This document shows, piece by piece, positions 1-43,702 of a stretch of 43,702 nt of DNA. Both the position numbers and the translations under genes were made by a program. Source of the DNA: Methanoculleus sediminis (GTDB lineage Archaea > Halobacteriota > Methanomicrobia > Methanomicrobiales > Methanoculleaceae); contig NZ_JXOJ01000008.1 of NCBI RefSeq assembly GCF_001017125.1, positions 1 through 43,702 of the forward strand, read 5' to 3'. Numbering within the stretch: position 1 is the first letter of the stretch; every line of letters starts with the position of its first letter. Below the pieces are notes generated by a model. The model ran no database searches, was not told the origin of the DNA, and saw only the letters and a program-made list of their open reading frames with translations.

Positions 1-19
1 CCCTCCCCGTCAGCCCCTC

Positions 20-105
20 CTCGCACCTAACGGTGCTCACGCTCACTGCGTTCGCGCCTCGCACCTTCGGTGCTCGAACTCCACTCCTAGCGGAGTGTCG
101 TTCCC
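20..105. repeat. Hairpin mosaic repeat, locus A
   Basis: Seen directly: a chain of short perfect inverted repeats. GCACC at 23-27 pairs with GGTGC at 32-36, GCACC at 61-65 pairs with GGTGC at 69-73, and ACTCC at 83-87 pairs with GGAGT at 92-96. Between them lies GCTCACTGCGTTCGCGC, close to the GCTCGCTGCGCTCGC part of the tandem repeat at the far end of the window, read on the other strand. The same style of repeat occurs near 10.3-10.8 kb, 22.2 kb and 43.6 kb. It lies beyond the 3' end of the minus-strand gene that ends at 227. Confidence 0.7.
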
Positions 106-9942: not shown

Positions 9943-10240
9943 GGGACTCCGATACCGGACGACTCGATCCGGCAACGGCAACCTGTGCACGGGAGATTGG
10001 GCAACGGCCCGCCTTTGCGTATGCGTTGTGTTCGTCACAATATTCACCGATGCCAGGCGATCGCGGTTTGTCCCGGTTTCAGTACTTTGCCAGGACTTCT
10101 GGAGATGCTTTTTTCTGGATGTTCAATCCGTTCGCACTCCGCGTGGATGCTTTGTTGTCATCCCACCGTGCAAGGCGCAAAGCGTGAAGAACGCCTCGAG
10201 GGTGGGTAATACACCTCTTGTATTTTCATGTGAAACGCTG
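9943..10240. other. Gene-free spacer after the archaellins
   Basis: About 300 bases of mixed composition. Some frames are open, but I see no start with a ribosome binding site and no recognisable protein. It leads into the hairpin block. Confidence 0.4.
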
Positions 10241-10840
10241 TTACCGGGAGGGGGAAATCCGCTCGAAGACCTTAGGTCTTCTCAAACTCCCTCCAGTCGC
10301 ACCTCCCCGGACCCTCGAAGAACTTCGTTCTTCTCATGCTCCTGCTCCGGACGTTGTCCGGAGCACCCTTCGGCCAGTCGCACTCCCCGAGGTGCGATAT
10401 GCGATGCGTGCCGAGGGGCAGGAGCACAGAAGAACGACGTTCCACCTGGGAACAGAGTTTGGGCACCGGAGGTGCGAAGGTGCGACTCCCTACGGAAAGC
10501 CGGTTCACCCTTCTTGCTCAGAATGCAGTTCAAATGATAGATACCCGGGAAGTAAGGGCTCCGGTTGGGGTATACCGAAGGTTCGAAAATCTTTCCGGGA
10601 CGACCACGGGGGCATAAGAGGGCATCCCGGAATGCCCTCTACAGGAGGGACACCAATCGCACCTCCGGTGCTCAAACTTGCTGCGCTCGCATTTCGCGTG
10701 AGTTTTCAGCACAGAGGGTGATAGAGCCTCACGCGAAGCCGCGACGAACGACTTTCCCGAAGGGAAAGGAGTTCGAGCACCGCAGGTGCGAAGAGCGATG
10801 GGCGGAACGCGACTGGCCGGAGGGCGAGAGCGTGAGAACC
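10240..10840. repeat. Hairpin mosaic repeat, locus B (large block)
   Basis: About 600 bases dense in perfect short inverted repeats with three- to six-base loops: GAAGACC/GGTCTTC (10265-10281), GAAGAAC/GTTCTTC (10317-10333), GCTCCGGAC/GTCCGGAGC (10344-10364), GCACC/GGTGC (10463-10475), AGAGGGCAT/ATGCCCTCT (10617-10640), GCACC/GGTGC (10659-10671), TTTCCC/GGGAAA (10753-10767) and GCACC/GGTGC (10777-10789). The stems change, but framing motifs such as CTCGAA before and CTCATGCTC or CTCAAACTC after recur. Long open frames here are by-products of the repeats, not genes. It lies between two converging genes. Confidence 0.75.
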
Positions 10841-11070: not shown

Positions 11071-12993
11071 TTAGAGGTTTTCCAGCCCGGACACCCCGAT
11101 ATTGTGCTGGAAGAACGTTTCCACGAGGGGTATCCAGAGCGGGTAGCCATTGAACTTCGCCACGGAGTAGAAAAAGACCATCATCAACTGCCACGTGAAC
11201 GGCACGGCGATAAGGAGGAACAGGGCTGCTGCAACCCAGGCGTCCGGGATGCCGAACTGTTTCCTCGCCACGATGAGGATGAGAGTTACGGCAAGCAGTA
11301 CAAACGTGATCTGCGTGAAGAACATGGTGTAACCGGCATACAGGCCGTCGTAGGGCTGGATAAGCATCATGGCGACGAGCAGCGCCGGAGCGGAGACAGC
11401 AACGACGGCGATCTGCCACAGCGTCCTCCGCTTCGGGTCAATAGTCCCGTTCAGGCGCGAGATCGCGTAGACCCCGAGCAGCCCTGCAGGCAGGTAGAAG
11501 GGAGCAAGGTAGCGGATATCCGGGACGATGCCGTGGCTGGCGTTCAGCCCCGGAAGGCTCCGGATGTAGGCGACCCAGACAGCGCAGGCTATGACGAGGA
11601 GGAAGGCCACCACCGCGAGATGGGGCGGGCGCTCCCCCCTCCGGTAGTCCAGGTAGATCATCGGGAGCAGGACGATCGCGAGGATGATCAGCGGCGAGAC
11701 CGCGACGAGGCTCATGTTCCCGGATGCGGGAGCAAAGAGGATGCCGAAGATGTCGCCGGGCAGGGTCGACCACGACGGGGAGAAGTGGTTTGCAAGGACC
11801 GAGAGGAAACCCGAGATCCCTCCAGAAGGCCCCGGAACCGACTGAACGACGCCGTTCACGGCCTCGGCCGCTCCGATGATCTCCTCGCCCGGGGCACCGG
11901 CGACGAGCCGCTTTTCGTAGACGTAGAACGTGGGCACCAGAGGGTTTCCGGTCACAAGGGCGTTGTTTATGAGCAGGGGGATGGCTCCGAGGAGCGTCGC
12001 AAGGGGTATGCAGAGCGCTTTGACCGCATTGAGCGGAGGCATCTGCAGAAGGCCGCGGGAGACCCGGAACCCGACGTAGTAGAGCGCGGCAAAGACAAAG
12101 ACCGTAAACCCGACCTCCGGTCTCGCCCACGCGAGCAGCCCGATGAACGCGAACCCGAGAGCGGCATCCCTGAGCCCCCCGTACCGGATATAGCGCACCA
12201 GGAAAAGGACGACCGCCGCGGTCATCGCTATCAGCAGCATGTGATCCTTCGCGTTCGAGGCCCAGAAGACATATGACGAGCAGGAGATGCAGGCGATCGT
12301 CCCGAAGATCGAGAACCAGGTATCCTCGAAGATGGCCCTGCATGTGAGGTAGATCATCACCGCGAGCGCGGCAAAGAGGAGGTGGTTCGTGAAGATCACC
12401 GCTGCGGTTTCTATAGGCGCGTCCGGTGCGGTCAACGGCCAGGGGTAGTAGAAAGTGAGGTTTGCGAGCAGCCCGATGAACGCAGCGGCGATCACGAGCC
12501 AGGTCCACCGGACCCCGTGCCACCGGGCATATTGCGGGCGATAGGCATCGACCAGCACTGCCATTGCGACCGGAAGGAGCGACCAGAGGAGCACGATAGC
12601 CAGCCTGAACTGGTCGCCGAAGAGGCCGAAGAACCAGAGCGCAGGAAGCGAGAGAACGGGGAGCATCATCGTGTAGCCGAGGAGGTTATGGCGGGCCTGG
12701 AAGTAGGGGCCGGCCGTCCCGTTCAGGAACGTGCCGTACTTTCCCTCGTTTACGGTTACCTGGTGGCCTTCGCCGAGCTGGTGGAGCTGGTTGACGGTGA
12801 TCCATTCGTCGTTCAGGAAGAGCGCCGGATTCGAGAATGTTAATGTAAGGAAGAGTGCAAAGAGGAAGATGAGCACCGGTATGAGGTTTTTACTCAGGAG
12901 GCAGGAGAGCGCCCCCTGTTCCGGCATGTCCCGGATTTCCTCTACCCGATCCGGCTGAGGCTTTGTTGTTGACTTTCGTCGTCGTGAACTCAT
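11071..12993 (-). CDS. Polytopic membrane glycosyltransferase-like protein (GT-C type)
   Basis: 640 residues with about a dozen hydrophobic segments. After a basic N-terminal tail (MSSRRRKSTTKPQ), TM1 is near 45-62. A first external loop with NDEWITVNQLHQL and YFQARHNLLGYTMMLP fits the acidic-residue loop of GT39/GT-C enzymes, which use lipid-linked sugars. The WWDYG motif of the oligosaccharyltransferase AglB is absent, so it is not AglB. The ATG at 12993 is chosen because the sequence before it is AT-rich promoter-like DNA (minus-strand TATA-like element at 13061-13070). It opens a glycan island and is divergent from a GT2 gene. The substrate is unknown. Confidence 0.75.
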   Translation of the reverse strand: MSSRRRKSTTKPQPDRVEEIRDMPEQGALSCLLSKNLIPVLIFLFALFLTLTFSNPALFLNDEWITVNQLHQLGEGHQVTVNEGKYGTFLNGTAGPYFQARHNLLGYTMMLPVLSLPALWFFGLFGDQFRLAIVLLWSLLPVAMAVLVDAYRPQYARWHGVRWTWLVIAAAFIGLLANLTFYYPWPLTAPDAPIETAAVIFTNHLLFAALAVMIYLTCRAIFEDTWFSIFGTIACISCSSYVFWASNAKDHMLLIAMTAAVVLFLVRYIRYGGLRDAALGFAFIGLLAWARPEVGFTVFVFAALYYVGFRVSRGLLQMPPLNAVKALCIPLATLLGAIPLLINNALVTGNPLVPTFYVYEKRLVAGAPGEEIIGAAEAVNGVVQSVPGPSGGISGFLSVLANHFSPSWSTLPGDIFGILFAPASGNMSLVAVSPLIILAIVLLPMIYLDYRRGERPPHLAVVAFLLVIACAVWVAYIRSLPGLNASHGIVPDIRYLAPFYLPAGLLGVYAISRLNGTIDPKRRTLWQIAVVAVSAPALLVAMMLIQPYDGLYAGYTMFFTQITFVLLAVTLILIVARKQFGIPDAWVAAALFLLIAVPFTWQLMMVFFYSVAKFNGYPLWIPLVETFFQHNIGVSGLENL

Positions 12994-13060
12994 GATAACC
13001 GCCCTGATGATGCGTAAAGAGGAGCTGATCTGTGAATTAGTAGTTTTTAGACTCGCCAAT

Positions 13061-13070
13061 TTTAATATCT
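13061..13070 (-). promoter_or_regulatory. Candidate TATA box for the GT-C gene
   Basis: AGATATTAAA on the minus strand, about 70 bases upstream of the ATG at 12993. Confidence 0.4.
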
Positions 13071-13100
13071 TCGTAAAGAACATTTTGCCAAATACGTAAA

Positions 13101-13110
13101 ACATATATCT
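13101..13110 (+). promoter_or_regulatory. Candidate TATA box for a structured RNA or GT2 leader
   Basis: ACATATATCT on the plus strand. Start sites about 25 bases further on would fall near 13131, just before the paired region that begins at 13144. Confidence 0.45.
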
Positions 13111-13129
13111 GAAATAAAGAATAAAAGAG

Positions 13130-13265
13130 GGCGACACAGCGCCGCAATGCTCCCAAGTGATTCCCAAAGAGCGTTGCAAGCTCGCGTGGGGCTCAAGTCA
13201 GGCATCGAAGTGCGTGGAACGCGCGGCACTCCCCGACCAATAATGCCTGACCGCGCTCCAACCAT
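13130..13265 (+). ncRNA. Candidate structured RNA between divergent glycosyltransferase genes
   Basis: Two successive stems are visible. GCAATGCTC (13144-13152) pairs with GAGCGTTGC (13169-13177), nine pairs including one G-U. GTCAGGCAT (13197-13205) pairs perfectly with ATGCCTGAC (13243-13251), enclosing an inner AGTGC...GCACT helix. The tract is GC-rich inside AT-rich flanks and has a TATA-like box 20-30 bases before it. It could be a small RNA gene or a regulatory leader of the GT2 gene that starts 190 bases later. I do not recognise it as tRNA, SRP RNA or RNase P RNA. Confidence 0.4.
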
Positions 13266-22194: not shown

Positions 22195-22310
22195 GCTGGA
22201 GCGAGTCGCACCTAACAGTGCTCCCGCTCCGGCCCCCGAAAACGCTTCGCATTTTCTCAAGCTCCGGTCCTCCGGACCATCGCACCCTGCGGCCCGTCGC
22301 GCCCGGCAGA
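22195..22310. repeat. Hairpin mosaic repeat, locus C
   Basis: GAAAACGC/GCATTTTC (22238-22256, one mismatch, loop TTC) and GGTCC/GGACC (22266-22278) are hairpins like those of locus B. GCACCTAACAGTGC at 22208-22221 is a decayed form of the GCACC/GGTGC hairpin at 23-36. The framing TCTCAAGCTCC matches TCTCAAACTCC in locus B. It abuts the 3' end of the acyltransferase gene. Confidence 0.65.
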
Positions 22311-43479: not shown

Positions 43480-43617
43480 GGGGCAGTCAGAGTCACCACA
43501 CTGGAAAACCCACAAGCAACTCATTGGACATCATAAATTCCCGGTCGGCAGTGAGGTCAAAGCCCCGTACACTGGACCGTGGGGATATCGCCTTAAGGGG
43601 GGTGGGGACAAAGGGGA
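43480..43617 (-). repeat. Non-hairpin part of a dispersed element (copy 2)
   Basis: On the minus strand the order is GGCGATA (43592-43586), GTGTACGGGG (43572-43563), then GATGTCCAATGAGTT (43532-43518), matching blocks at 111-158. One minus-strand frame is open across it and would end in LLVGFPVW before a stop, with in-frame Met codons at 43534-43529. The peptide is too short to call a gene. Confidence 0.5.
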
Positions 43618-43702
43618 GTGCGAGCGCAGCGAGCATGAGAAACTCGAAGAGTTTCGAGGTGCGAGCGCAGCGAGCATGAGAAACTCGAAGAGTTTCGAGG
43701 TG
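43618..43702. repeat. 41-base tandem repeat, hairpin locus D
   Basis: Two exact copies of a 41-base unit at 43618-43658 and 43659-43699, with the first three bases of a third copy cut by the window edge. Each unit begins GTGCGAGCGCAGCGAGCATG and contains the hairpin AAACTCGAAGAGTTT. Read on the other strand, it has the CTCGAA...TCTCATGCTC frame seen in locus B. Confidence 0.9.

Follow-up and report, generated by a model that had tools for sequence, protein, structure and literature searches.

The window analysed here, a 43,702-nucleotide stretch of Methanoculleus sediminis DNA, carries arrays of short hairpins that we judge, on balance, to be members of a BIME-like family of Methanoculleus and its sister genus, copied as DNA and recognised in the form of a folded single strand. 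Stems are interchangeable in these hairpins; what stays constant is the pairing, closure by a C-G pair and a loop of the GNA or GNNA type. The arrays lie between genes, at gene 3' ends. Between species, syntenic sites show arrays appearing, collapsing and trading whole modules.

Read on one strand, the units have the form YGA-hairpin 1-GAGNNYGA-hairpin 2-GA. The stems of hairpin 1 mostly begin with C (CGTTCC, CTGCCG, CTTCCCC, CTGTCC and CGGACG among others), those of hairpin 2 include GCACC, GAAGACC, GAAGCC, GAAACTC and GAAACCC, and the linkers consist mainly of GAG followed by TTC, CAT, TTT, CTT, CGT, CTC or CAC and then GA. When places were picked by the frame alone and pairing was scored afterwards, a perfect hairpin of at least 5 bp directly followed GAGNNYGA at 17.3% of places in the loci of the window's own genome, compared with 0-5% for single-letter variants of the frame. 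The reversed frame AGYNNGAG reached 10.6%, because such strings arise within the arrays themselves, and it was never flanked by hairpins on both sides, against 31 such cases for GAGNNYGA. The arrangement YGA-hairpin-GA occurred in 453 distinct contexts, which share descent and hence represent a smaller effective number of independent events, with 53 kinds of stem, versus 3 contexts in the reversed-frame control; the changing stems in a constant frame described by the earlier note are thus real and can now be quantified. Most arrays have a single orientation (95, against 37 mixed), and no universal array-end motif emerged from 14-mers in the window's genome. Tandem duplications of 41-46 bp occur within the arrays, and runs of N in the genome records fall on these tandem parts (loci L002, L010, L016 and L021).

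Table 1. Hairpins, units and modules in the window, with strand and supporting detail.
Feature	Position	Strand	Detail
Hairpin GCACC-GTTA-GGTGC, in frame	23..36	-	Covariance-model match 19-55, 24.5 bits
Complete two-hairpin unit: CACTCC-GCTA-GGAGTG, linker GAGTTCGA, GCACC-GAA-GGTGC	57..101	-	Covariance model 59.8 bits; hairpins 61-73, 82-97
Hairpin GAAGACC-TAA-GGTCTTC, preceded on the minus strand by linker GAGTTTGA	10265..10281	-	
Hairpin GAAGAAC-GAA-GTTCTTC, in frame, preceded by linker GAGCATGA	10317..10333	-	
10-bp hairpin TGCTCCGGAC-AAC-GTCCGGAGCA, minus-strand 5' neighbour of the 10317..10333 hairpin	10343..10365	-	
Two-hairpin unit: GTTCC...GGAAC, linker, GCACC-GGA-GGTGC	10434..10479	+	Covariance model 42.9 bits
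Hairpin AGAGGGCAT	10617-10640		Outside the recurrent frame
Hairpin GCACC-GGA-GGTGC plus linker	10655..10690	-	Covariance model 33.1 bits
Inverted-repeat module, arms TTTCGCGTGAG (10692-10702) and CTCACGCGAAG (10728-10738)	10692..10738	.	Sequence, k-mers
Complete two-hairpin unit: CTTTCCC-GAA-GGGAAAG, linker GAGTTCGA, GCACC-GCA-GGTGC	10748..10793	+	Covariance model 59.6 bits; CTTTCCC hairpin 10752-10768
Degenerate unit, stem GGTCC/GGACC	22245..22283	-	Covariance model 32.7 bits
In-frame hairpin GAAACTC-GAA-GAGTTTC, preceded by linker GAGCATGA; first copy of 41-bp tandem	43639..43655	+	
Hairpin GAAACTC-GAA-GAGTTTC, second of 41-bp tandem	43680..43696	+	

All of the stems named previously in the window (GAAGACC, GAAGAAC, TGCTCCGGAC, AGAGGGCAT and CTTTCCC) sit where they had been placed, and GCACC/GGTGC does recur five times, with the loops TAAC (23-36), TTC (61-73), GGA (10463-10475), TCC (10659-10671) and GCA (10777-10789). 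The stem TGCTCCGGAC includes GCTCCGGAC, and the AGAGGGCAT hairpin is probably unrelated to the family. The four loci that had been described as hairpin chains (20-105, 10240-10840, 22195-22310 and 43618-43702) were compared with chance: 92 bases of 10240-10840 lie in stems of at least 6 bp, against a mean of 12.2 in 300 dinucleotide shuffles (sd 12.6, max 64); 20-105 equals its shuffle maximum for stems of at least 5 bp (32 bases versus a mean of 4.2); and the stem content of 43590-43702 exceeds that of its own shuffles. The fourth, 22195-22310, has perfect hairpins at chance level (one stem of at least 5 bp) and is a degenerate copy recognised by the covariance model only. Besides the hairpin units there is a second recurrent module, CTTCGCG..CTTCGCGTGAG / CTCACGCGAAGCCGCGAAG, which forms an inverted repeat in or beside arrays, at 10692-10738 of the window and in 20 of 39 loci of the same genome; by k-mers, the CTCACGCGAAG module at this position recurs within arrays across the genome. 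The main array comes after two archaellin-type genes. On the minus strand at 11074-13179 is a 702-residue protein with no Pfam match that is conserved in the genus beside the array; in several species its orthologous frames contain stop codons. The last array runs on beyond the window edge (continuation in locus L010), the contig itself (C14) begins within an array (window 1-105), and many copies in the sister genus also lie at contig ends. These repeats thus break assemblies.

The covariation check was made on 125 distinct 26-mers, picked by the frame and a central GNA with pairing not required, and revealed that pairing is kept across the variable stems. Watson-Crick cells made up 82.7% of the total, compared with a mean of 55.4% and a maximum of 59.6% when the 3' letters were redealt, and 12-43% when partners were slid by 1-2 columns; 155 cells had changed on both sides, against a shuffle maximum of 70. 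Retaining one row per distinct stem gave the same outcome (77.9% versus 51.3%, max 56.8%). The loop is constrained as well: over all contexts, 281 of 331 triloops were GNA, 86 of 122 tetraloops GNNA, and 401 of 453 stems had C at the loop. With the stem fixed as GCACC/GGTGC, 184 of 192 distinct triloop contexts were still GNA with a free middle base, and most tetraloops were GNNA. Loop and closure correspond to those of the stable DNA mini-hairpins (GNA or GNNA, C-G closure, at least two G-C pairs), which are extraordinarily stable and nuclease-resistant (PMC4686876); a title in PMC2984261 reports d(cGNNAg) as a stable DNA tetraloop obtained by in vitro selection. Because C-G-closed GNA and GNNA loops make such stable DNA hairpins, the selected form would be the folded single DNA strand. 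A binding site for a nucleoid or architectural protein on duplex DNA would be consistent with the constant GAGNNYGA frame and the intergenic placement, but a duplex binder would need neither stem pairing nor a GNA/GNNA loop on one strand, which makes this explanation very improbable.

RNA hairpins acting in transcripts, for 3' ends, termination or mRNA stability, were also considered. G.T pairs outnumber A.C pairs when the reading strand is considered (39:11 and 21:6). This excess suggests that the reading strand is the one that folds, and it would suit RNA no less than DNA; energy models likewise made the reading strand the more stable one both as RNA and as DNA. Mapping against gene ends, based on a simple codon-model gene caller rather than curated annotation, placed the arrays at gene 3' ends, in 54 convergent, 44 tandem and 5 divergent regions, so that divergent promoter regions are avoided (p=4e-9), as would be expected of RNA elements too; 19 further arrays overlap gene calls, and some of those calls are probably wrong. 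However, the orientation of arrays relative to genes in tandem regions was not significant (59:46, p=0.24), orthologous genes in sister species have no array, and no Rfam model matched the window at its gathering score. The tetraloops are also mostly not of the GNRA type: in 77 of 89 GNNA loops a pyrimidine occupies position three, and on this ground selection for the RNA GNRA tetraloop is rejected. A UUCG loop on the opposite strand is ruled out by geometry, the letters there giving a TTC triloop with five pairs. The terminator or RNA-stability role raised by the earlier note is therefore weakened, as tandem orientation is not significant and the loop types are not the stable RNA ones; we regard it as unlikely, without discarding it. 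No replichore strand bias appeared in the one genome examined for it (G020), where at best 31 of 48 were consistent, random strands giving a mean of 30.7.

The family is abundant. The 601-bp array of the window has 109 matching pieces, itself included, in its own 2.49-Mb genome, and the exact pattern GAGNNYGAGCACCGNAGGTGCGA has 55 copies there and is found in 27 genomes of the genus. A further 26 genomes from the same family and order gave no match to it, and the pattern read backwards gave none. In a scan of 84,980 species genomes, the matches listed were titled Methanoculleus (M. chikugoensis included), Methanomicrobiales archaeon and Euryarchaeota archaeon. A covariance model built on the two-hairpin unit, the genome-wide search that had been proposed for this family, put the number of units in the window's genome at 139 or more, high counts by this model being lower bounds. 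Copy number is bimodal among the 31 Methanoculleus genomes, with 31 or more units in 22 and fewer than 10 in 9. Low-copy genomes of the genus tend to be smaller. The idea of a family was to be abandoned if no further copies existed or if stems paired no better than in shuffled sequence; copies are many and pairing lies far above the shuffles.

In a sister-genus genome of the same family (G035), the frame was matched 23 times, versus once in the control, and all of these matches except one tRNA-like sequence (L236) keep the grammar, mostly with different stems. Their chief form is CGGTCC-GCA-GGACCG-GAGCATGA-GAAGACC-GAA-GGTCTTC, and many copies have a common right end, CCCTCCCG(T/G)CAGAG..GTTTTGGGATGACCTC, followed by unique DNA. 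This shared end (...GTTTTGGGATGACCTC in L220-L241) suggests a discrete element in that genus. Between Methanoculleus and its sister genus, frame and loop have lasted longer than the stems. Frame matches in other genera were few, and many of them are one conserved tRNA-arm-like sequence without full stem pairing. A single viral contig gave a match (L249:5826-5848), beside a low-complexity GGGACGCCGCC repeat and probably by chance.

Comparison of syntenic sites revealed how arrays change. At the first site (C8:53059), five aligned species have an orthologous array, and in seven others (G004, G033, G028, G011, G032, G005 and G029) the same flanks enclose about 50-110 bp of sequence unrelated to it. 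Where the window's genome (G000) has CCTCCCC...GGGGAGG-GAGCATGA-GCACC-GTCA, G015 has CTTTCCC-GCA-GGGAAA-GAGTTCGA-GCACC-GTTA; stem, linker and loop differ together, so that a whole hairpin-linker-hairpin module has been exchanged. Copying thus accounts for at least some of the apparent compensating changes, which the earlier note had attributed to selection or to a copying mechanism; the constancy of loop and closing pair still calls for selection on the folded strand. The second site (C1:203869) measures about 780 bp in the window's genome; in four species whose left flanks are 92-95% identical it measures 68-70 bp, and the short form retains the family piece CTCACGCGAAGTGCGACGTTC in three of the four, indicating in-situ collapse to a short remnant. 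At the site of the window's own array, 14 relatives with the neighbouring gene have no in-frame hairpins within 1.5 kb, as far as the contig extends, and the nearest relative (G025) has a different, degenerate intergenic sequence. The two syntenic filled and empty sites examined showed neither a target-site duplication nor an insertion with clean boundaries; active transposition is therefore not established, and slippage, unequal recombination or gene conversion could suffice.

These observations bear on a purely passive origin, in which slippage, unequal recombination and quasi-palindrome correction by template switching act alone, with no dedicated protein and no function, and loop constancy reflects the physics of hairpin-primed correction. 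The 41-46 bp duplications within arrays, the collapse at one site, the lack of target-site duplications at both and the fruitless driver searches described below would all be consistent with it. However, the same modules stand at dozens of unlinked sites, which needs copying to new places, near-absolute GNA and GNNA loops with a free N are hard to obtain from correction alone, and copy number is bimodal among species; we consider this origin rather doubtful.

The known driver of bacterial REP elements found no support. The Y1 transposase domain (PF01797) had no match in the window's genome, nor in almost all high-copy species, and among the six genomes of the genus with PF01797 above the cut-off, five have at most 6 units, an inverse association (Mann-Whitney p=0.004). 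Searches with the Y2 transposase domain (PF04986) gave no match in 35 genomes of the genus, a result to be read with the control genomes, which likewise gave none. A classical REP/BIME family once driven by a since-lost RAYT (Y1 HUH) transposase would resemble these repeats in size, abundance, placement between genes, clustering in mosaics and a short invariant flank next to a palindrome that varies (PMC2817692), but with no PF01797 match in the window's genome and matches in the genus tied to low copy number, and with no GTAG or CGTC terminal tag, this derivation is largely refuted and highly improbable. The flanks are instead YGA and GAG/GA with GAGNNYGA linkers, and no cognate Y1 gene flanked by inverted units was found in the window's genome. 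The REP-like character proposed earlier therefore holds for anatomy and genomic habit, namely short (20-40 bp), mainly intergenic, high-copy palindromes in mosaic clusters, and not for tag or transposase; lacking these two defining features, the repeats stand outside the RAYT-REP family, though they work like BIMEs. The terminal inverted repeats with target-site duplication of a MITE were not found at the two syntenic sites. The arrays were rightly set apart from insertion sequences and CRISPR arrays: the single invariant repeat and evenly sized, unique spacers of a CRISPR array are lacking, stems, loops and linkers all vary, and different array sites have modules in common.

For the favoured reading, a family copied as DNA and recognised in folded form, a mechanism can be proposed. 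Hairpins would form where a strand is exposed during replication, repair or transfer, and the modules, whose folded single-stranded form would be recognised or favoured on physical grounds, may then be copied, tandemly duplicated and exchanged through recombination or template switching. A putative trans-acting protein would probably help, reading the frame and loop rather than the stem. In a more specific form, which we advance tentatively, an archaeal enzyme other than a Y1 transposase would read single-stranded DNA by its frame and GNA/GNNA loop, indifferent to the stem, and would copy or swap modules between intergenic sites, making the family a mobile mosaic that is guided by structure and tolerant of sequence.

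Similar architectures are known elsewhere. The double-hairpin elements of Allomyces mtDNA are comparable chains of variable-stem short hairpins in a eukaryotic organelle and are regarded as selfish DNA. The palindromic repeats of Volvox carteri organelles also form intergenic chains of short hairpins in which the stems vary and a short loop (TTTA/TAAA) recurs, are inserted into one another and are regarded as selfish DNA (PMC2670323); these belong to eukaryotic organelles and have other loops and another frame, and no homology is claimed. Bacterial REP/BIME families are tagged by GTAG or CGTC, the CGTC families having no associated transposase gene, and the surveys that describe them cover bacterial families (PMC2817692, PMC3733652). 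Like these, the Methanoculleus repeats are short, high-copy intergenic palindromes in mosaic clusters, with a brief invariant sequence next to a palindrome that can change its bases while complementarity is kept. Unlike them, they are archaeal, untagged, framed by YGA...GAGNNYGA with two hairpins per unit in direct order, fixed in their GNA/GNNA loops and without a detected Y1 transposase in the window's genome. The likeness to d(GNA) and d(GNNA) mini-hairpins (PMC4686876 and references there; for d(cGNNAg), PMC2984261) extends to the G...A loop ends, free middle base or bases and C-G closure, but those are known as oligonucleotides, and our literature search brought up no genome-wide repeat family made of them. 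Two satellites of M. marisnigri, Fam_48_45_4 and Fam_102_51_3 (45 and 51 bp), come from the same genus and lie near the tandem lengths of the arrays; in the accessible part of that catalogue they are listed as satellites only, without hairpin grammar (PMC6749651).

The repeats appear to form a REP-like family of high copy number in archaea, of which we found no earlier description, new in its loop rule, its frame, its archaeal host (as far as found) and its missing Y1 driver. In practical terms, the arrays sit at contig ends, may lead to more false calls of tandem repeats or CRISPRs, and could serve as typing markers for biogas methanogens. The missing Y1 transposase raises the question of what spreads REP-like repeats without a RAYT. 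The family offers a clear example from nature of conserved loop type and frame combined with a free stem, the opposite of an ordinary sequence repeat, and because its loop rule is that of the most stable DNA mini-hairpins, it would provide a direct test of whether cells select folded single-stranded DNA.
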